From: a virus
Direction: 5' to 3' (one strand)
DNA: 30,711 nucleotides
IMG/VR virus record: IMGVR_UViG_3300025162_000136
Span: 1 to 30,711 of that record
Under the pieces are notes generated by a model. It was not told where the DNA came from. It worked only from the letters and a program-made list of their open reading frames with translations, and ran no database searches. This document shows positions 7,015 to 30,711 of this stretch, piece after piece; within the stretch, counting starts at the first letter, position 1, and each line of letters opens with the position of its first letter. The position numbers were made by a program, and so were the translations under genes.

Positions 7015-7469
7015 GCGGCGTTCTCATATGCGTGGTTAGTTTCCGCCAGGTAGTCCATCGCTTCCGCATGACTGACCGACTTATGATATTTTTTGCGCAT
7101 GGTGTTGGTCCGATAATGGAGGTTTCTCCGATAGTCCGCCGCTATTTGCCAGAGTTTGAAACGGGCTTGCATACGGTCCATTTCCCGACGCATCTGGATC
7201 ACCATACCCGCCAGATCGGTATTGGAGTATTCGCCGCCCTTGACCACCGCGATGCCTTTCGCGCGGAGTTTAGCCTTGCGGATTTTTTCGCGGCAGCGGT
7301 CGCAAGTCCGATATTCGAGACCACGGGGATGGCCACAGCGCGGGCAGCGCGTTTTATCTTTGCGCCGTTCGATCACCGCCGCTTGGAATGCCTGAGCCTT
7401 GGCAATGCGTTCCGGCGTCCGGTCAGCCCGGTCAAATCCGAAACCTTTTTTTATTTCGCTGGCGCTCAT
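7005..7469 (-). CDS. Zinc-ribbon protein of unknown function
   Basis: 154 residues from the ATG at 7469, which overlaps the stop of the preceding gene (ATGA). Residues about 41-61 hold two Cys pairs, CPRCGHP and CDRC, spaced as in a zinc ribbon. A very basic helical stretch follows (REKIRKAKLRAKG), as does a C-terminal helical region rich in Arg and Tyr. This suggests DNA or RNA binding. It and its partner at 7466-7753 sit between F (gp30) and G, which are adjacent in Mu, so the pair looks like an insertion. No HNH motif was found. Confidence 0.7.
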   Translation of the reverse strand: MSASEIKKGFGFDRADRTPERIAKAQAFQAAVIERRKDKTRCPRCGHPRGLEYRTCDRCREKIRKAKLRAKGIAVVKGGEYSNTDLAGMVIQMRREMDRMQARFKLWQIAADYRRNLHYRTNTMRKKYHKSVSHAEAMDYLAETNHAYENAAES

Positions 7470-18861: not shown

Positions 18862-21189
18862 ATGAATCTGTTGACCGACAACTCACCCGCGCTGGCTGCG
18901 CACGACGAATCCACGACTGCGGCCCGCGCTTCTCAACTCCCGGCGGCGCCCGCGTCAGGCGCGCCGGTTAATTTCGATGCCCCCGCTGGTGGCCGCGCTG
19001 CCAAGCGCTCAGCGGTGGCGGACTATTTCGATCTGGACGAATCCGCCTTTGACGCGGCGGAAGCCGCCTTAGATCAAGTCACCAGTAACCAGTCACCAGT
19101 CACCAATTTAGATTTGTCGGGTAAATACAGGCACGCAGAGAGCGGCGTGGCGGACTCCGGTCCCGACGGGGGTGATGCCCCTTTTCAGCCGGCCCCGCAA
19201 CATAGACCCGTGGACGGACGGGTCGCTCTCACCGTCCCCTCTTCCGGCCCGGACGAAACCAGCGCCACGTGCAACGCTGTGAGCAGTCCGGCGCCGGCTC
19301 TTTCCCGTGAGTCCGATCTGCGCGCCGCCGAGGCCACCGCGGCGGTGCTGCGTGCGTTCGATCAACTGATGGCCGACGGCCACCACAGTCTGCGCACGGC
19401 CGCCCGCGAGCTCGGCCGGCCGGCCAGCATGTTCAGCGGCGACACCAGCGCCCTGGCGCGGTTCCGCCGCGAAGGCATCGCGGGGCTCTTGCCGCAGCGC
19501 GGCACGGTCTCGGCGAACATCCGCTTCGAAGTCCCGGCGTGGTTCGTGCCGGCGGCGAAGTTCTTTTATCTGCTTTCCAACCGGGTGCGCAACGGGGGCT
19601 CAGTGCCCGAAGCCATCCGGCGCACGATCTCGCTGCCAGTGCTGCCCACCGGATGGACCAATGCCCACAAGGCGCGATTCCTCAAGGCCATTGGCCAGAC
19701 CGGCACGGTCCCATCATGCCCGGATGAACTGCGCGCTTTGATTCTTGCCCGCCAGGATGCCGGCCAGCCGCTGGTGCCGGAACGGCTCGCGCGCCAGATC
19801 GCGGTGAACGCCTCGGTGGTGCAACTATTCCGCAGCCCGCGCGCCTGGTCGCTCGACAACCAATCCGCGCCGGGCAGCCAGCGCCGCTACTTCGACAAGG
19901 AAACCTGCCAGCGCGAGATCATGCTGCCGGGCGACTGGTTCGGCGGCGATGACGCCACGCCAGGCATCGCGGTCTGCGTGCCCTGCACGGCGGTGATCAC
20001 GCCGTGCTCGCAAAAGTTCGGCGTGCTGCTGGGCCGGTTCCAATGGCTGGCCTTTCCCGACGCTCGCACCGACAAGCTGCTGGGCTGGGATTACGTGGTG
20101 CGCCCGCGGGGCAGCTATCGCGCGGAGGATATTTTGAACGGCATGGGCACGGTGGTGCGCACCCACGGCGTGCCGCGCAAGGGCTGGCAGTTCGAAGGCG
20201 GCACGTTCAACAGCAAGCTGGTGCGGCAGGCCATCGAAGCGCTGAAGTGCGAACACTGGCGCACCTACTCGCCGCATCAAAAGGCCATCGAGAGCGTGTT
20301 CAACCGGGTCTGGACGCGGATCGCGGTGCAGTTCCCGCACGCGGACATGGGCCGTTACCGCTCCGAGAACGAGGCCAACTGCCGGATCTATGAGCTGTGC
20401 AAAAAGGGCGGGCAGGATCCCCGCAAATATTTCCCGACCATCGAACTGATCGTGGCCGTGTTCGATGAGGAAGTGAAGGCGCACAATGCCAAGCGCATTT
20501 TCAGCGAGCAATATGGCCAGTGGGTGCCCGATGAATTTTTCACGCAGGCCACCTCAGAAGCGCCACTCCGTGGCTTTAGCAATGACAGCATGGGTTGGAT
20601 CTTTGCGCCGTTCGCGGTGGAGCGCGTGGTGAACAAGATGATCGTGAAGTGCCGGGTGCCGATGTTTGAGGATTTCAGCGTGCCGTTCGAGTTCAACGCG
20701 CCCTGGATGCCGCTCTACGATGGCAAGCGCGTGCGGATCCACTTTAACCCGCGCGAGCCAAAATGCACCGCCAAGGTGATCCTGCTGGACAACTGCGGCA
20801 CGGCCAAGGCCGGCGACATCCTGGGCGACGCGCAACTGATCGGTGAGACCAGCGGGCACATCCGGCTGGTGATGAGCTGGGCGGATGACAACCAGCGCGC
20901 CGGCTACGTGGCCCGCCAGAAGACGAACAACTTCATGCGCCGGATGAGCCGGGGCATCGGCGCCAACGGCCGAGTGACCTACGCCAGCGACGAGCAGCGC
21001 GACGGCATTGCCGGGGTGGCCAAAGTTGAGCAGGTGGCACCTGCTGGCCATCAATCTGAAAAGACGGAAAACAACCAATCCGAAGAGTCCCGACTGGTGG
21101 CCGTCCGCCAGGACCGGGATGCCGTCCGGGCCGCCCGGCGCGCTGAACTGGAACGCCTCGAAAACGAAACCGCAGAACACCGCTACTGA
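18862..21189 (+). CDS. MuA-like DDE transposase
   Basis: 775 residues. The N-terminal 150 residues are low-complexity and Ala/Ser/Pro-rich and include a heptamer-encoded stretch; a helical DNA-binding part follows (about 150-330). The RNase H-like core spans about 340-500: GGDDATPGI (Asp363/Asp364), FEGGTFNSKLV with Glu445 where MuA-type enzymes carry Asp, and SPHQKAIESVFNRVW with Glu477. After it comes a beta-barrel/C-terminal region with VPFEFN and HFNPREP, matching the Mu transposase C-terminal domain. It should join phage ends to target DNA for integration and replicative transposition. The order A then B matches Mu. Confidence 0.9.
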   Translation: MNLLTDNSPALAAHDESTTAARASQLPAAPASGAPVNFDAPAGGRAAKRSAVADYFDLDESAFDAAEAALDQVTSNQSPVTNLDLSGKYRHAESGVADSGPDGGDAPFQPAPQHRPVDGRVALTVPSSGPDETSATCNAVSSPAPALSRESDLRAAEATAAVLRAFDQLMADGHHSLRTAARELGRPASMFSGDTSALARFRREGIAGLLPQRGTVSANIRFEVPAWFVPAAKFFYLLSNRVRNGGSVPEAIRRTISLPVLPTGWTNAHKARFLKAIGQTGTVPSCPDELRALILARQDAGQPLVPERLARQIAVNASVVQLFRSPRAWSLDNQSAPGSQRRYFDKETCQREIMLPGDWFGGDDATPGIAVCVPCTAVITPCSQKFGVLLGRFQWLAFPDARTDKLLGWDYVVRPRGSYRAEDILNGMGTVVRTHGVPRKGWQFEGGTFNSKLVRQAIEALKCEHWRTYSPHQKAIESVFNRVWTRIAVQFPHADMGRYRSENEANCRIYELCKKGGQDPRKYFPTIELIVAVFDEEVKAHNAKRIFSEQYGQWVPDEFFTQATSEAPLRGFSNDSMGWIFAPFAVERVVNKMIVKCRVPMFEDFSVPFEFNAPWMPLYDGKRVRIHFNPREPKCTAKVILLDNCGTAKAGDILGDAQLIGETSGHIRLVMSWADDNQRAGYVARQKTNNFMRRMSRGIGANGRVTYASDEQRDGIAGVAKVEQVAPAGHQSEKTENNQSEESRLVAVRQDRDAVRAARRAELERLENETAEHRY
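19077..19104. repeat. Heptamer AGTMACC x4 within the transposase gene
   Basis: AGTCACC, AGTAACC, AGTCACC, AGTCACC run without gaps. They encode the peptide VTSNQSPVT in the variable N-terminal part of the transposase, before its conserved domains. Confidence 0.9.
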
Positions 21190-21212: not shown

Positions 21213-22244
21213 ATGCACAACGAAAAATTAAATCAACTGCGCACGCTGGCGCGCGAATGCCAGTCCTACCAGATCGAACGCGGCCTCAGCGACGCCAAGT
21301 TCGTGACCAAGGTTTCCCAGGTGGGTTCCACCAAGACCTACAAGCGCATCCTGGACGACGCTGATCCGCTGGAAGAGCTGAACGTGGACAAGCAGCTCGC
21401 CAATTACGTGGCGGCGGTGGAGTTCATCAAGGTGCTGCGCGCCAGTGATCGCCCGCCGGAACCGGAATATCCCGACTTCGACAACATCGAGAGCAGCCGC
21501 GCCGCCGTGGCCCGCGCCATGAGTGAGGAAACCATCGCCCGGTTTGTGGTGATCGAAGGCGAGAACGGCACCGGCAAGGACGCCGTGAAGAACGCCCTGC
21601 TCAAGACGTGGAAGAGCAGCATCGTGGTCGTGGAAGCCACCGAGCTCTGGCGCGAGAACGTGAACCCGGCCCTGGCTGACATCATCGTGGCGCTCGGCAT
21701 CCGCCGGCGGGAGGATGACAGCGGAGATTCGTTCAAGCTGCCCATGCATCCGCAGGCCCGGCTGAACACCATCCGCGAAGAACTCTGCAAGCGGAAGCTG
21801 ATCCTGCTGATCAACGAAGGCCATCACCTCGGCCCGCAAATGTTGAACCTGGTGAAGTCCCTCATCAACCAGACGCCCACCGTGGTGGTGCTGGAATGCA
21901 TTCCCAAGCTGCTCGCCCGCCTCGTGGGCCAGAACTATGAGGAAGCCATTCAACTCTTCGGCAACCGGCTCTGCGAGCGCGTGCGCCTGGTGAGCCCGTC
22001 GCAGGATGAGATCGCCACGCTGTTCGAACGGCGCGGGGTGAAGTTCGCCGATACCAAGACGGAGAACCAGGCATCCGGCGCGGTGGCCACGGAAGCCCCG
22101 CAGTTCGGCAACTGGCGCTACGTGGTCCAGGTCTGCCGCGAAGCCCGCGAATCGGCCAACGGCAAGGCCATGACGATGGACCAGTTCGCCAGCGCCGTCA
22201 CCCGTGCCCGCAGCCGCCGGATCATGCAACAGAAGGCAGCGTGA
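21213..22244 (+). CDS. MuB-like transposition ATPase
   Basis: 343 residues starting MHNEKLNQLRTLARECQ. The N-terminal ~60 residues resemble the MuB helix-turn-helix that modulates DNA binding. The AAA+ domain has Walker A GENGTGKD (116-123), Walker B LILLINEGHH with Asn201-Glu202 in place of the usual Asp-Glu, and a sensor region VVLECIPKLL. MuB polymerises on DNA, selects targets and activates MuA. It starts 23 bases after the transposase stop and ends in a GCAGCG-TGA-CGCTGC palindrome whose centre is the stop codon. Confidence 0.9.
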   Translation: MHNEKLNQLRTLARECQSYQIERGLSDAKFVTKVSQVGSTKTYKRILDDADPLEELNVDKQLANYVAAVEFIKVLRASDRPPEPEYPDFDNIESSRAAVARAMSEETIARFVVIEGENGTGKDAVKNALLKTWKSSIVVVEATELWRENVNPALADIIVALGIRRREDDSGDSFKLPMHPQARLNTIREELCKRKLILLINEGHHLGPQMLNLVKSLINQTPTVVVLECIPKLLARLVGQNYEEAIQLFGNRLCERVRLVSPSQDEIATLFERRGVKFADTKTENQASGAVATEAPQFGNWRYVVQVCREARESANGKAMTMDQFASAVTRARSRRIMQQKAA

Positions 22245-25540: not shown

Positions 25541-26086
25541 ATGAGTAAAGCCCGAATCAACATCAAGCTGTCCACCGAAGTCCTGATCACCCGCGCCGAT
25601 GCGGAGATGGCCATGAACGAGCTGGCCCTGGCCGAGAACAACAAGCGCAAATCCGTGGCCGAGCGCGATGCCCTGGTGCTGAAGGTGCAGGAGAACTTCG
25701 CCCCGCTCATCAGCGAGTGCGAGACGTTCATTGGCCGCAAGTCCGCCGAATTGCAGGCGTGGGCGGAGACCCATCCCGACGCCTTCGCCAAGGGCCGGAA
25801 GAGTCTGGAACTGGCCGCCGGCACGCTCGGCTTCCGCACCGGCACGCCCAAGCTCTGCCTGCTCTCGCGCGCCTGGAACTGGAAAAAGGTGACCGACGCC
25901 CTCATGGTGCATCTGCCCAACTTCATCCGCTCGGTGCCGGAACCGGACAAGGAATCCTTGCTCGCGCAGCGCGAGGAACTGGCGCCCATGTTTCCCCTGA
26001 TCGGCATCAAGGTGGAGCAGGGCGAATCGTTCTTCATCGAACCGAATCTCACGGATACCGATGCCCGCCAGTCTGTGGCCAATTAA
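25541..26086 (+). CDS. gam: Mu Gam-like host-nuclease inhibitor
   Basis: 181 residues starting MSKARINIKLSTEVLITRAD. The family pattern of Mu Gam is visible: an N-terminal long helix with 'AEMAMNELALAENNKRKSVAERDALVLKV', 'CETFIGRKSAELQAWAETHPDAFA', then GTLGFRTGTPKLCL, the conserved 'G.igwR...P.v'. Gam dimers coat DNA ends and block RecBCD-type exonucleases; they are related to Ku. The length of 170-190 residues is normal. It starts after an A-rich leader (ACCGCATATATAT) lacking a Shine-Dalgarno sequence. Confidence 0.88.
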   Translation: MSKARINIKLSTEVLITRADAEMAMNELALAENNKRKSVAERDALVLKVQENFAPLISECETFIGRKSAELQAWAETHPDAFAKGRKSLELAAGTLGFRTGTPKLCLLSRAWNWKKVTDALMVHLPNFIRSVPEPDKESLLAQREELAPMFPLIGIKVEQGESFFIEPNLTDTDARQSVAN

Positions 26087-26379: not shown

Positions 26380-26690
26380 CCAGCATCCGCGAACAGATCG
26401 AAGCCGACTGTAACGACGTGGCCGAGTCGGTTAAGGCCTTCAAGCAAGCCATTCATGAGGTGACGGAACTGCACAGCCAGTTGTTCGTTCCCTTGGGTGC
26501 TGCAAACTTGGCTCTGCGGGTCATCCAGTCGAAATCCTTCATCGGGAGAAATGATCCGCTGATGAAGGAAATCCAACGACTCAATGAGCTGGTAGAGAAA
26601 GTCCAACAACTAAGAAACCAGATGGATCTGGGCACGCTGGTGGTGAAAACCGACCGCGTGATGGATGCGGTCTGGAAATCACTGCCATGA
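26376..26690 (+). CDS. Helical hypothetical early protein
   Basis: 104 residues from the ATG at 26376 (MTSIREQIEADCNDVAESVK), with AAGGAGG 5 bases upstream. It is almost entirely helical, with two amphipathic helices (KEIQRLNELVEKVQQLRNQM among them). No motif was recognised. Its stop overlaps the start of the ASCH gene. It is the last gene before the integron-linked region. Confidence 0.6.
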   Translation: MTSIREQIEADCNDVAESVKAFKQAIHEVTELHSQLFVPLGAANLALRVIQSKSFIGRNDPLMKEIQRLNELVEKVQQLRNQMDLGTLVVKTDRVMDAVWKSLP

Positions 26691-27127
26691 AAGCGCTCTC
26701 CATCCGCCAACCGTGGGCATGGCTAATAATCCGCCCGGACATCATCGGCGACGAGGCCCGCGCCCAGGCCGCGCAGACCGGCCTGCTCAAAGGCATTGAA
26801 AACCGCGACTGGCGGACCTCTCTGCGCGAGCGGATTTACATCCACGCCAGCAAAGGCCTGACCCGCGCTGAATATGATCAGGCCGTTGAATATGTCCGCA
26901 CGGTGGTTCACGCCTCGATTGAAATTCCGCCGATGGCTGAGCTGGAGCGCGGCGGCATCATCGGCGAAGCGGATTTGACCGATTGCATCTGGGAATCCTG
27001 CTCGTGGTGGTTCAATGGCGAGTTCGGCTTCGTGCTGGAAAATGCCAAGCCGCTGCCGTTCCAACCGTGCCGGGGGATGCTGAAATTCTTCGAGGTATCC
27101 AACGCTGACTCCAGCCGCCGCGAATGA
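26687..27127 (+). CDS. ASCH-domain protein whose 3' end lies in attC1
   Basis: 146 residues starting MKALSIRQPWAWLIIRPDII. The ASCH signature is clear: 'kaLSIRQPWAwlI..G.K.iEnRdw.T..Rg.i.IHAs' is seen as KGIENRDWRTSLRERIYIHAS, and 'GGIIGEADLTDC' is the usual second strand. ASCH domains bind modified nucleotides or RNA and recur in phages and integron cassettes. Translation is coupled to the preceding phage gene (ATGA), yet its last 31 bases are the left half of an attC site. It is either a cassette captured at that point or a phage gene used as the insertion boundary. Confidence 0.85.
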   Translation: MKALSIRQPWAWLIIRPDIIGDEARAQAAQTGLLKGIENRDWRTSLRERIYIHASKGLTRAEYDQAVEYVRTVVHASIEIPPMAELERGGIIGEADLTDCIWESCSWWFNGEFGFVLENAKPLPFQPCRGMLKFFEVSNADSSRRE

Positions 27128-27203
27128 CTGACATGAGAACGCACCAGACGTTACCGATTAAGACGCAGCGCCGCTCGCGGTTGGCTGCGAGGACGGGTTG
27201 GAC
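27097..27203 (+). other. attC1 recombination site (107 bp)
   Basis: R'' ATCCAAC (27097-27103) fits RYYYAAC and R' GTTGGAC (27197-27203) fits GTTRRRY; the two are near-perfect complements. Next to each is a 5-base spacer (gctga, gacgg). L'' CTCCAGCCGCCGCGA then pairs with L' TCGCGGTTGGCTGCGAG, leaving two unpaired bases on one side. That is the extrahelical-base pattern IntI uses to choose the strand. The cleavage point would be G/TTGGAC. Confidence 0.85.
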
Positions 27204-27219
27204 AGCCCGATAAAAAACT

Positions 27220-27462
27220 ATGCAACTGAAAAATCGAAAATTCAAACGGTGGCAATTTGCAATGCAGCTTGCGAGCTGCGGCTACGGTCTAAAGCCGCCT
27301 GTCAACCGCCTTAACACTCGTCGCAACCGTGACCGGTTGTGCGCCAAATGGTGGAATCTGGCGAATGAAGATATGCGTCGCCACATGAAATCTCTGCTGG
27401 CAAAACGCGCCGCCGGGCTGTCCAACGACAAGCTGAGGCACGGCGGGGACAACGAGCAATGA
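27220..27462 (+). CDS. Cassette 1 gene, basic hypothetical protein
   Basis: 80 residues starting MQLKNRKFKRWQFAMQLASC. It is very basic, with many Arg and Lys, and probably helical; no motif was recognised. It starts 17 bases after attC1, and its last 43 bases overlap attC2, the compact layout of an integron cassette. The TGA stop overlaps an ATG (27459) in another frame. No promoter is visible, so expression would rely on the upstream early operon. Confidence 0.6.
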   Translation: MQLKNRKFKRWQFAMQLASCGYGLKPPVNRLNTRRNRDRLCAKWWNLANEDMRRHMKSLLAKRAAGLSNDKLRHGGDNEQ

Positions 27463-27542
27463 ACGTAGAAGCGACATCTGAATTGAAAGCGAGCGACGAG
27501 CGCACGGCGCACCCGCCGTTGTCCTCCAGCGTCTTGTTAGGT
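27420..27542 (+). other. attC2 recombination site (123 bp)
   Basis: R'' GTCCAAC (27420-27426), spacer gacaa, L'' GCTGAGGCACGGCGGG. On the other side are L' CCCGCCGTTGTCCTCCAGC, spacer gtctt and R' GTTAGGT (27536-27542). L'' and L' pair throughout except for extra bases on one strand, again the extrahelical pattern. Between them is the variable loop region. Confidence 0.82.
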
Positions 27543-27551
27543 GTCCCTTCC

Positions 27552-28061
27552 GTGACTCTCGCGCTTCCGGGTCTGGAATCCGAAAGCGTCCGACTCGACG
27601 ACATCATCCTCACGCCGCTGGACGTGGCGCGTGACGTGGTGAAACACTTCAAGCCGTCTGGACGCATCCTCGACCCGTGCCGTGGCAACGGCGCGTTCGC
27701 TGACCTGATGCCAGGATGCGACTGGTGCGAAATCCGCCAAGGCCGCGACTTCTACGCATGGCGCGAGCCGGTGGACTGGATAGTGAGCAACCCGCCCTAT
27801 TCGGTGTTCGCGGACTTCCTGCGGCACAGCCTGACCGTGGCGGAGAACATCGTCTATCTGATACCAGTGAACAAAATCTTCAACAGCGACCGAATGATGC
27901 GCGAAATCTGGACGTGGGGCGGCGTGCCGGAAATCTACACCGTGGCCGGTGGTGGCGCGCTCGGCTTCCCGATTGGCTTCGCTATCGGTGCTGTCCACTT
28001 CCGGCGGGCATACCGTGGCGAAACACGGGTGACGTTCAGGACACCTAACGAAAAAAGCTGA
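27552..28061 (+). CDS. Cassette 2 gene, orphan N6-adenine DNA methyltransferase
   Basis: 169 residues from the GTG at 27552, 9 bases after attC2; the frame is open back to ATG 27459, which would read through the attC. Motif I is ILDPCRGNGAF and motif IV is VSNPPYSVF (NPPY), the amino-methyltransferase pattern for N6-adenine. The C-terminus holds LIPVNKIFNSDRMMREIW and IGFAIGAVHFRR. The enzyme is short, with no clear target-recognition domain and no restriction partner. Likely role: protecting phage DNA from host restriction, or marking it. attC3 begins 18 bases before its stop. Confidence 0.82.
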   Translation: MTLALPGLESESVRLDDIILTPLDVARDVVKHFKPSGRILDPCRGNGAFADLMPGCDWCEIRQGRDFYAWREPVDWIVSNPPYSVFADFLRHSLTVAENIVYLIPVNKIFNSDRMMREIWTWGGVPEIYTVAGGGALGFPIGFAIGAVHFRRAYRGETRVTFRTPNEKS

Positions 28062-28141
28062 GCCACCGCTGACTCACGGCGTGAACCGCGACAGCGGAAC
28101 TGACAGCGCCAACGGCGGTTGGCTCCGGCGACTTGTTAGGC
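28043..28141 (+). other. attC3 recombination site (99 bp)
   Basis: R'' ACCTAAC (28043-28049), an A-rich spacer, L'' GCTGAGCCACCGC. On the right are L' GGCGGTTGGCTCCGGC, spacer gactt and R' GTTAGGC (28135-28141). The arms pair as GC-GAGCCA-CCGC with two unpaired bases in L'. An additional CCGC-GACA-GCGG hairpin lies in the variable terminal part. It shares GCGGTTGGCT with attC1. Confidence 0.87.
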
Positions 28142-28164
28142 ATCAGCGATAACGACATACAAAA

Positions 28165-28422
28165 ATGATAACTCAAACACCGATAGTAAATGCTGCGGCA
28201 TACGACATAACAGACAGCGGCGACATCCGGCGGAGAACCACTGGCGACCATGTGTGCGCCACCGATGCCCGCGAAATAGAACTCGCGCTAAACCAATGGC
28301 GCGACATCGCAAAACGTCTCGCTGAAAACGGCGGCGGACTCGGCAGATATGACGCCGGAAAGTATCTCGATGCGATTGATGAATATAAACGCATGGCCGC
28401 GATGCCTAACAGTAAAATATAG
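28165..28422 (+). CDS. Cassette 3 gene, hypothetical protein
   Basis: 85 residues starting MITQTPIVNAAAYDITDSGD. It is hydrophilic; the second half is helical with REIELALNQWRDIAKRLAEN and YDAGKYLDAIDEYKRMAA. No family was recognised. It starts 23 bases after attC3 and is less GC-rich than phage genes. GCCTAAC, a left attC core, lies at 28403-28409 inside its last codons, but no right half follows before intI. Confidence 0.6.
   Translation: MITQTPIVNAAAYDITDSGDIRRRTTGDHVCATDAREIELALNQWRDIAKRLAENGGGLGRYDAGKYLDAIDEYKRMAAMPNSKI
28403..28409 (+). other. Truncated attC (R'' core only)
   Basis: GCCTAAC fits RYYYAAC and sits at the end of the cassette 3 gene, where R'' is expected. No L'', L' or GTTRRRY is found before intI or in its first 100 bases. 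This suggests the array was cut here when it was joined to intI; a chance match cannot be excluded. Confidence 0.45.
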
Positions 28423-28443
28423 AACCCCACTTCGCATATCGCT

Positions 28444-29421
28444 ATGAGCCTTTACGCCAAACTCCAGTTCGCCGTGGCCTCGAATAATCACGACGCCAAC
28501 ACGCTGGAATCGTATTGGGCGGCCTGCAAAAAGTTCTATGCGTTCTGCGGCAAACCCGCCAGCCAGTGGACCGGGCCGGAGGTGGAGCGGTGGCTGGTGA
28601 GCCTGCACGATCAAAACTATTCCCGGTCGTCGCGTAAGAATGCGTTGTGCGCGATGGCCTACGTTTTTAAGCACGTTTTAAAGGCCGATATGGGCCGACT
28701 AAATCTGCCTGCCATGCCGCCGGAACGGAAGCCGCTTAAGATCATTCCCACGCGCGAGGAGATTGCCCGCATTTTCGCCGGGCTGAAAGGCCAGCCGCGC
28801 CTGATCGCCGCGCTGGAATATGGAGCCGGCACCCGGATCGGCGAGACGTGCGAGCTCCGCGTCCAGGATATTGACTTCGCGGCGCTCACTGTGCGCATTC
28901 ACCAGGGGAAAGGCGACAAGGATCGCATGACGGTGCTGCCTACGATGCTGGTGCCGGCCTTGCAGCGTCACATCGCCTGGCGGAAGGCGCAGCATGACAT
29001 TGATCTGGCGCACGGCGGCGGGTTCGTGGAATTGCCCGGTCAACTGGCCAAGAAATATCCGAACGCCAAGCGCGAGCTGCGCTGGCAGTTTCTTTTCCCG
29101 TCTGCCGTGACGCGCGGCCAGTATCGCTGGCATATCACGCCCAAGGCGGTGCAGGATGCCATGCGCGAGGCCGTGAACGCCGCCGGCATCATGAAGCGGG
29201 TCACGCCGCATACCCTGCGCCACGCCTTTGCCACCCATTCCATGCGGATGGGCAATGACATCGAAACCGTGCGCGATCTGCTGGGCCATGATTCGATTGA
29301 GACGACGGCGATTTACTTGCACGCGGACGCGGCCAAAGGCTGCAGTCCGCTGGATGTGGCGATGGATCTGCCGTTGCCGGCCAAGAATCTCGCCGCGCCT
29401 AGGGCGGCGCTGCTCAAATGA
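28444..29421 (+). CDS. intI: Integron integrase (IntI-type tyrosine recombinase)
   Basis: 325 residues starting MSLYAKLQFAVASNNHD. It has a SAM-like core-binding domain (about 5-85) and a catalytic domain with GTRIGE (Arg131), a beta-hairpin Lys near 155-159, HTLRH (His256, Arg259), LLGH (His282) and the nucleophile Tyr291 in AIYLHA. The diagnostic IntI insert, absent from XerC/D, is at about 196-219: LPGQLAKKYPNA then LRWQFLFPS, followed by the attC-contacting region and C-terminal GCSPLD. It should excise and insert cassettes by cutting one strand of folded attC. Its start is 22 bases after cassette 3; its stop overlaps the next gene. It faces the same way as the cassettes. Confidence 0.9.
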   Translation: MSLYAKLQFAVASNNHDANTLESYWAACKKFYAFCGKPASQWTGPEVERWLVSLHDQNYSRSSRKNALCAMAYVFKHVLKADMGRLNLPAMPPERKPLKIIPTREEIARIFAGLKGQPRLIAALEYGAGTRIGETCELRVQDIDFAALTVRIHQGKGDKDRMTVLPTMLVPALQRHIAWRKAQHDIDLAHGGGFVELPGQLAKKYPNAKRELRWQFLFPSAVTRGQYRWHITPKAVQDAMREAVNAAGIMKRVTPHTLRHAFATHSMRMGNDIETVRDLLGHDSIETTAIYLHADAAKGCSPLDVAMDLPLPAKNLAAPRAALLK

Positions 29422-30020
29422 AAACCAAATTTCCCCGTGCTGCCGCGCTCGCCGTCGCCAAGGAATTGTGCGAATTACTGAAGCCTTTAACGGATCGTTT
29501 GGTCGTGGCCGGTTCGCTGCGCCGGCGCAAGCTGGAAGTCGGCGACGTGGAAATCCTCTTCATCCCCCAAATGGTCACGGTGCCGGATGGGTTGTTTGAT
29601 TCAAAGCAGGTGAGCCGGGTGGATGCGTTGCTGGAAGTTTTGCTGCGCCCGCCGCCCATTGTTTCAAAGCGCCTATCGGCCTCGGGTTCCACGGCGTGGG
29701 GCGCCAAGAACAAACTCGCCGTCCACGTAGCCAGCGGGATCCCGGTGGATCTGTTCACGGCCACGGCGGAGAACTGGTTCAATTACCTGGTCTGCCGGAC
29801 CGGCTCGGCGGAGAGTAATATGGCCATCTGCAACGCAGCCATCGCCAAGGGCTGGAAATGGAACCCCTACGGCGCCGGCTTCACGGATACCCACGGCAAC
29901 CTGGTGCCGGTCACCATCGAGCGCGAGGTGTTCGAATTGGTGGGCTTGAAATACCTTGAACCGTGGGAACGGAACGGCCCGCCGGCCATCGGCGCGGCCC
30001 CGGCGAACTGCCCGCGATGA
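29418..30020 (+). CDS. PolX-like nucleotidyltransferase
   Basis: 200 residues from the ATG overlapping the intI stop (ATGA). A DNA polymerase beta-like palm is visible: VVAGSLRRRKLEVGDVEILF with Asp43 and Glu45 as metal ligands (D-x-E rather than D-x-D), SGSTAWG-type residues near 90, IPVDLFTAT with Asp111, and the PolX 'TGSaesNm..c..A...GwkWnpyG.g' end. The N-terminal HhH domains and C-terminal PHP domain of cellular PolX are absent. It could fill gaps or act on ends after recombination or transposition. Coupling to intI suggests they work together; that part is inference. Confidence 0.8.
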   Translation: MKTKFPRAAALAVAKELCELLKPLTDRLVVAGSLRRRKLEVGDVEILFIPQMVTVPDGLFDSKQVSRVDALLEVLLRPPPIVSKRLSASGSTAWGAKNKLAVHVASGIPVDLFTATAENWFNYLVCRTGSAESNMAICNAAIAKGWKWNPYGAGFTDTHGNLVPVTIEREVFELVGLKYLEPWERNGPPAIGAAPANCPR

Positions 30021-30026
30021 CCCCGC

Positions 30027-30545
30027 ATGATCGGCTTAAACGACAATTATTCCGGGCGCGTCGAGGTGGACTTCACCCATCGGCAGCCATTGCTCACGGT
30101 CGGGGCCGTGGCGTGGATCGCGCGCATGGACCCTTTCCGGGTAATTCAAGCCTGCGAGGACGGCACGTTCGCGTGGGCGTTTGACCTGGCTGAGCCGTCG
30201 GCCCGCAAACGGTCGCTCCGAATCTGGCGCGGCTCGGTCTGCGAGAATCTTAAGACCATGGGCCGGTGCGGTGGCGAATCCGCCGCTGAATCAATGGTCC
30301 TGGATGACATCATCCCCGTCGGTCGCAACCCATTCAGTTCGGAGATGACGCGCCGGCTGTCGATCCATCGGACGACGCTGGCGGATTTCATTGATGCGGG
30401 ACAAGTGAAGGTGAGCGGCCCCGCGCACGCGAAGTATGGGATCGAAGCGGCCTGCAAATTGGAACGGGCGAGCCTGGTGAAATTTCTCTCTTCTCGGCGC
30501 CTCGGATTCTGCGGTGCTCGCCAGCTCGAAGCCCCATTTGCCTGA
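30027..30545 (+). CDS. Hypothetical protein preceding attC5
   Basis: 172 residues starting MIGLNDNYSGRVEVDFTHRQ, 6 bases after the nucleotidyltransferase stop. The sequence VGAVAWIARMDPFRVIQACEDGTFAWAFDLA suggests a small DNA-binding or excisionase-like fold. A second similar block (SSEMTRRLSIHRTTLADFIDAGQV) looks like a helix-turn-helix with a wing, as in MerR/Xis-type proteins. No exact family was recognised. The TGA stop falls in the putative R'' of attC5. Confidence 0.6.
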   Translation: MIGLNDNYSGRVEVDFTHRQPLLTVGAVAWIARMDPFRVIQACEDGTFAWAFDLAEPSARKRSLRIWRGSVCENLKTMGRCGGESAAESMVLDDIIPVGRNPFSSEMTRRLSIHRTTLADFIDAGQVKVSGPAHAKYGIEAACKLERASLVKFLSSRRLGFCGARQLEAPFA

Positions 30546-30664
30546 CCCATTCAAAGCTGAAGCCTCGGAAAGTGAGGTCGGAATGCGGTTTCTCTCCAGT
30601 TAAATCAAGCCTTCCAAAGCCATTTCACCTCCGTTCAAGGACAAAGCTGGTGTCCTCGTTAGGC
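30540..30664 (+). other. Probable attC5 recombination site (about 125 bp)
   Basis: R' GTTAGGC (30658-30664) is identical to that of attC3. The left core GCCTGAC (30540-30546) deviates at one base from RYYYAAC. Spacers ccatt and tcctc follow, and GAGGT near 30570 pairs with ACCTC near 30629 within a partly matching arm. Pairing is weaker than in attC1-3. The stop of the previous gene lies in R'', and a new ATG follows 3 bases after R', both usual for cassettes. Confidence 0.55.
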
Positions 30665-30667
30665 GTC

Positions 30668-30711
30668 ATGTCACACGAATATCCACATGGAGTTGGTCCG
30701 GCAGGTCGGTG
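30668..30711 (+). CDS. Start of a further cassette gene, cut by the window
   Basis: ATG at 30668, three bases after the attC5 right core, open to the end: MSHEYPHGVGPAGR. Too short to assign. It suggests that the cassette array continues to the right. Confidence 0.4.
   Translation, partial: MSHEYPHGVGPAGR

Follow-up and report, generated by a model that had tools for sequence, protein, structure and literature searches.

A probable phage-adapted integron closing the early operon of a Mu-like tailed phage

The virus record IMGVR_UViG_3300025162_000136, analyzed here over its entire length of 30,711 bases (hereafter the window), carries an integron within a Mu-like transposable phage. An integron integrase (IntI) with its characteristic insert, an attI site beside intI and at least two attC sites are all present in the window, as are a MuA-type transposase, MuB and Gam. 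Very probably, the integron is adapted to its Mu-like tailed phage and forms the distal part of the early operon, with canonical attC polarity and reversed cassette genes that would be read by the early transcript. The record is linear and has no terminal repeats, so it is likely a fragment. The structural genes (TerL, portal, MuF and capsid) run leftward from about 16 kb and the early genes run rightward, with the integron following them:

18862-21189, plus strand: MuA-like transposase, 775 aa (Foldseek match to the Mu transpososome, 4fcy)
21213-22244, plus strand: MuB-like AAA ATPase (phrog_296 DNA transposition protein, E 1.3e-8; AAA_22)
25541-26086, plus strand: Mu Gam-like protein (PF07352, E 1.2e-19), also in six sister contigs
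26687-27127, plus strand: ASCH-like gene (phrog_3193, E 5e-43; name from a reading of the sequence)
27097-27203, minus strand: attC1 (covariance model 35.4 bits, E 1.4e-6)
27220-27462, plus strand: cassette gene of 80 aa without assigned function, an ORF between attC1 and attC2 (coding score +1.1)
27420-27542, minus strand: attC2 (covariance model 23.5 bits, E 0.001)
27555-28061, plus strand: DNA methyltransferase cassette gene with an NPPY motif (phrog_799 DNA methyltransferase, E 3e-27)
28043-28141, minus strand: attC3 (covariance model 32.0 bits, E 9.3e-6)
28165-28422, plus strand: cassette gene of 85 aa without assigned function, its end crossing the attI core (coding score +1.8)
28407-28443, minus strand: attI, with the core GCCTAAC (plus strand) at 28407-28413, then the attI arm
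28444-29421, plus strand: integron integrase IntI, 325 aa (TIGR02249, 263.8 bits)
29418-30020, plus strand: DNA polymerase X-like phage gene (PolX), downstream of IntI (PF14791, E 4.5e-12)
30027-30545, plus strand: c30.0k, a phage gene without assigned function, downstream of IntI

The MuA-like protein matched no Pfam or NCBIfam family in a sequence-profile search. Because the rve profile detected the transposase in none of the contigs, we relied on fold comparison. The AF2 model had a mean pLDDT of 50 (70-87 in the core), and the top Foldseek match of the predicted core, in this model of low overall confidence, was the Mu transpososome 4fcy (E 8e-10). MuA-like homologues are present in the sister contigs G002, G003 and G004. 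The window protein seems to have a Glu (E445) at the position of the second catalytic Asp of MuA, as do four of four aligned copies, and from these sequences a D-E-E catalytic triad is possible. A further, divergent MuA-like protein is encoded at G003:22305-24839 (L180). The phage thus shares a MuA-like transposase, a MuB-like ATPase, Gam and MuF with phage Mu and its relatives. It differs from phage Mu in that its structural genes are divergent from the early genes, and in that an integron closes the early operon.

The preliminary description of this DNA had recognized a tyrosine recombinase with the IntI-specific insert, and had named a grouping with XerC/D as the observation that would speak against an integron. 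The insert (patch) is present (LPGQLAKKYPNAKRELRWQFLFPS), the catalytic residues R131, H256, R259, H282 and Y291 are all in place, and the top match in the PDB is IntI4 (2a3v). The integron integrase profile TIGR02249 scored 263.8 bits, roughly twice the scores of XerC (125.7) and XerD (121.1); as judged by profiles, the XerC/D grouping was thus not borne out. An identity as XerC or XerD was also considered and rejected, since their profiles were not the best match and the IntI insert is present. The window IntI lies 1.2 bits below the curated TIGR02249 cut-off of 265, and its sisters L006, L007, L008 and L014 lie above it. Twelve members of the phage IntI clade share the attI core AACAG and its position, while the right arm of attI is conserved among sister pairs and poorly so in the window.

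All three attC sites claimed initially were recovered by a home-made pattern scan and, as an independent test, by a covariance model. They scored 17-19 in the pattern scan, where shuffled windows are expected to yield 0.025 sites at scores of at least 16. The covariance model, whose training set consisted only of class 1 and chromosomal (bacterial) attC oriented by their genes, returned exactly these three sites across the full window, all on the minus strand and with the next match at E 0.68. Rfam gave chance matches only over the integron region. A fourth attC, proposed at about 30540-30664, did not hold up: it has a GTTAGGC box but no inverted arms and a fold z of -0.04, and the covariance model had no match there even at E 10.

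Small cassette genes had been described between the attC sites, and we confirmed ORFs there. The methyltransferase ORF is open from 27459 and likely starts at GTG 27555. The antisense ORF opposite the 28165-28422 gene has a coding score of -2.2. It also held true that the array continues the early operon without a gap, as the 26687-27127 ORF terminates inside attC1. This ASCH-like gene, which has a homologue (45%) between Gam and IntI in G008, either precedes the array as the final phage gene or is the most distal cassette of the array.

Two features were absent from the preliminary description, namely the attI core at 28407-28413 and the minus-strand orientation of the attC sites. The extra bases of bacterial attC occupy the arm that is 5' with respect to the cassette gene. 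Our class 1 control arrays follow this rule and were read correctly. The extrahelical bases of the window attC lie in the right arm, which orients the sites to the minus strand and thus against the cassette genes. A plus orientation, which the end of each ORF at an R box might suggest, was ruled out by the covariance model together with the class 1 control. The attC thus point away from intI, as they do in bacterial integrons, and the cassette genes lie on the plus strand, toward intI. The arrangement in which cassette genes are oriented with their attC, typical of bacterial integrons but not obligatory in them, is not found in the window, where the genes oppose the attC.

This reversal extends well beyond the window. 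With attC located by the covariance model and gene strand assigned by a codon classifier that recalls 64% of known genes, viral cassettes were reversed in 61 cases and normal in two, as against five reversed and 49 normal bacterial cassettes (Fisher 1e-24, treating cassettes as independent). All 11 cassettes of the window clade were reversed, as were 50 in a second phage clade, where two were normal. Per locus, 21 of the 22 viral loci were mostly or wholly reversed. For the methylase cassettes, gene strand was fixed by homology. Two phages with attC clusters (CALINs) from Qi et al. 2023 (PMC9892861) differ in polarity: the GenBank phage MW202573, whose annotation was made by others, also has reversed cassettes, whereas Tetrasphaera phage TJE1 is normal. 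The latter rules out that reversal is universal in phages.

Relatives of the window were recovered through IntI alignment only. Scanning viral contigs with single proteins (MuA, MuB and portal) gave no matches, and neither did MuA and TerL protein searches of phage records. The viral IntI found by alignment are 46-75% identical to the window IntI. In six viral contigs (G001, G002, G003, G004, G006 and G008), Mu Gam is followed by IntI on one strand at a distance of 1.5-5.4 kb. With the window this makes seven contigs, two of which (G003 and G004) are near-copies of each other. In G003/G004 the gene directly after IntI is MuF, TerL lies downstream of IntI in G006, and further clade members carry TerL, portal, capsid or helicase. 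Homologues of PolX and c30.0k are found inside G001, where the c30.0k homologue is on the strand common to Gam, PolX and IntI. Short PolX-like genes recur, with homologues in G001, G005, G006, G009 and G011.

These contigs bear on whether the integron belongs to the phage at all. The preliminary description had placed it inside a Mu-like phage, which would be mistaken if the contig were a chimera or if the right end of the phage lay before 27097. Neither was found. The order of Gam and IntI, together with phage genes beyond IntI in sister contigs, indicates that the integron is a stable part of the phage rather than host DNA past the phage end. A chimeric contig, or a Mu-like prophage end adjoining a host integron, would agree with a linear record of undefined ends, but it is highly improbable given that the Gam-IntI order is repeated elsewhere, that structural genes follow IntI in G003, G004 and G006, and that composition is uniform, with no shift at 27 kb of the window.

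In the larger contigs (G001, G003/G004, G006, G009, G011, G012 and G013), nearly all attC hits are upstream of IntI and on the strand opposite to it. The one exception is G010 (L166), where an attC-like site (7035-7143, E 0.007) with no array nearby is situated about 6 kb downstream of intI. L007 and some other relatives have no detectable attC despite possessing intI and attI. The contigs G001, G002, G005, G007, G008 and G010 end about 0.1-1.4 kb from intI, which fits assembly breakage at variable cassettes. Integron loci have probably been overlooked so far, with assemblies often ending near intI.

We placed the window IntI in a tree of 139 rows, obtained by a quick search and with a long-branch warning on L022, which lies just outside the window clade. 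The window falls in an all-viral clade of 13 rows (SH-aLRT 99). A second clade of 40 rows is nearly all viral and close to class 1. Members of this second clade (L046, L059, L019, L026, L080 and others) have their own conserved attI and reversed cassettes, in arrays of up to about ten attC sites, as in L019. L046 and L059 have a separate phage integrase just downstream of IntI. L052, L064 and L070 form a third viral IntI group, in which the array is downstream of intI and the attC are in the intI direction.

Could the integron be a piece of a host chromosomal integron, accidentally picked up and carried as a passenger, as in Vibrio anguillarum phage p16? The published intI-bearing Vibrio phages are explained in this way (PMC9892861). 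However, the window IntI belongs to a 13-row virus-only clade at a constant genomic place, and its cassette genes have a polarity opposite to that of bacterial cassettes. Cellular IntI are at most about 45% identical to it, and a search of 388 Verrucomicrobia-phylum genomes yielded no close IntI (best 44%). We therefore regard a passenger origin as unlikely. It also seems improbable that IntI serves as a phage integrase or dimer resolvase, for example by integrating the whole phage through attI x host attC, with the cassettes as by-products. Conservation of attI even where no attC was detected, such as in L007, would agree with such a role, but these phages possess a MuA-like transposase of their own, a separate phage integrase lies beside IntI in the second phage clade, and arrays reach about ten attC (L019).

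The preliminary description had proposed searching for related phages with different cassettes at the same place, and two sister pairs were found to diverge exactly left of the attI core. Between L007 and L008, whose IntI are 83% identical, DNA homology starts with the initial base of the AAC core and runs through intI, and there is no alignment immediately left of the core. The homology between L016 and L017 breaks at the same base, and that between L015 and L016 within four bases of it. Such breaks at the attI core are the expected trace of cassette insertion at attI, and at the level of sequence they point to real cassette exchange between phages. DNA methyltransferase cassettes are found in the window, L014, L016 and L017, and a PAPS-reductase-like protein is cassette cargo in L016. 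Cargo identified by homology thus consists mostly of DNA methyltransferases, whose role is plausibly anti-restriction; we infer that the cassette methylases would protect the phage.

These observations suggest how the integron might work. IntI, which is presumably recombination-active, would recombine the folded attC of circular cassettes with attI. Since attI overlaps the 5' region of intI, each new cassette would land directly upstream of intI. Genes turned round inside their cassettes would then be in sense with the early operon, and the early transcript (MuA-MuB-...-Gam-cassettes-intI) would read them from the early promoter, instead of a Pc promoter at attI. A normal bacterial cassette would be antisense here, so selection would favor a reversed pool. 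By means of such cassettes, phages would exchange cargo among themselves.

In Qi et al. 2023 (PMC9892861), integrons and CALINs were described in phages; the intI there derived from integrons of the hosts (Vibrio, class 1 and Shewanella), and phage attC were shown to be recombined by IntI1. The phages of that paper share attC arrays, sometimes intI, and DNA methylase cargo with the window, whereas no Mu-like phage, phage-only IntI clade or reversed polarity is reported in the text consulted. The suggestion that an integron in such a phage is not a standard described system is therefore partly upheld: phage integrons are published (PMC9892861), but the open-access literature searched gave no account of an integron in any transposable phage, and none of a phage-only IntI clade or of cassettes that are reversed. 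The window shares with bacterial integrons (class 1 and chromosomal) the IntI patch, attI beside intI, attC cores with extrahelical bases, and attC polarity away from intI. It differs from them in being phage-borne, in its phage-only IntI clade and in its reversed genes, which are aligned with the early operon. The Acidobacteria integrons L087 and L100 also have cassette genes in the intI direction, but there the attC follow the genes and the array is 3' of intI, whereas the window has its array 5' of intI, with attC and genes opposed.

Taken more broadly, environmental tailed phages likely own dedicated integrons, whose IntI form two or more phage-only lineages, which have an attI of their own and which draw on a distinct pool of reversed cassettes fitted to phage operons. 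By this route, phages would trade small genes, anti-restriction genes among them, independently of bacterial integrons. If true, phages would be capable of swapping small genes, such as methylases, in modular fashion by site-specific recombination, and part of phage mosaicism would be explained. Cassette polarity would then be invertible to match the way the carrier is transcribed. It would thereby become testable what share of the cassette pool is in circulation among viruses, and whether phage cassettes are taken up by bacterial integrons.
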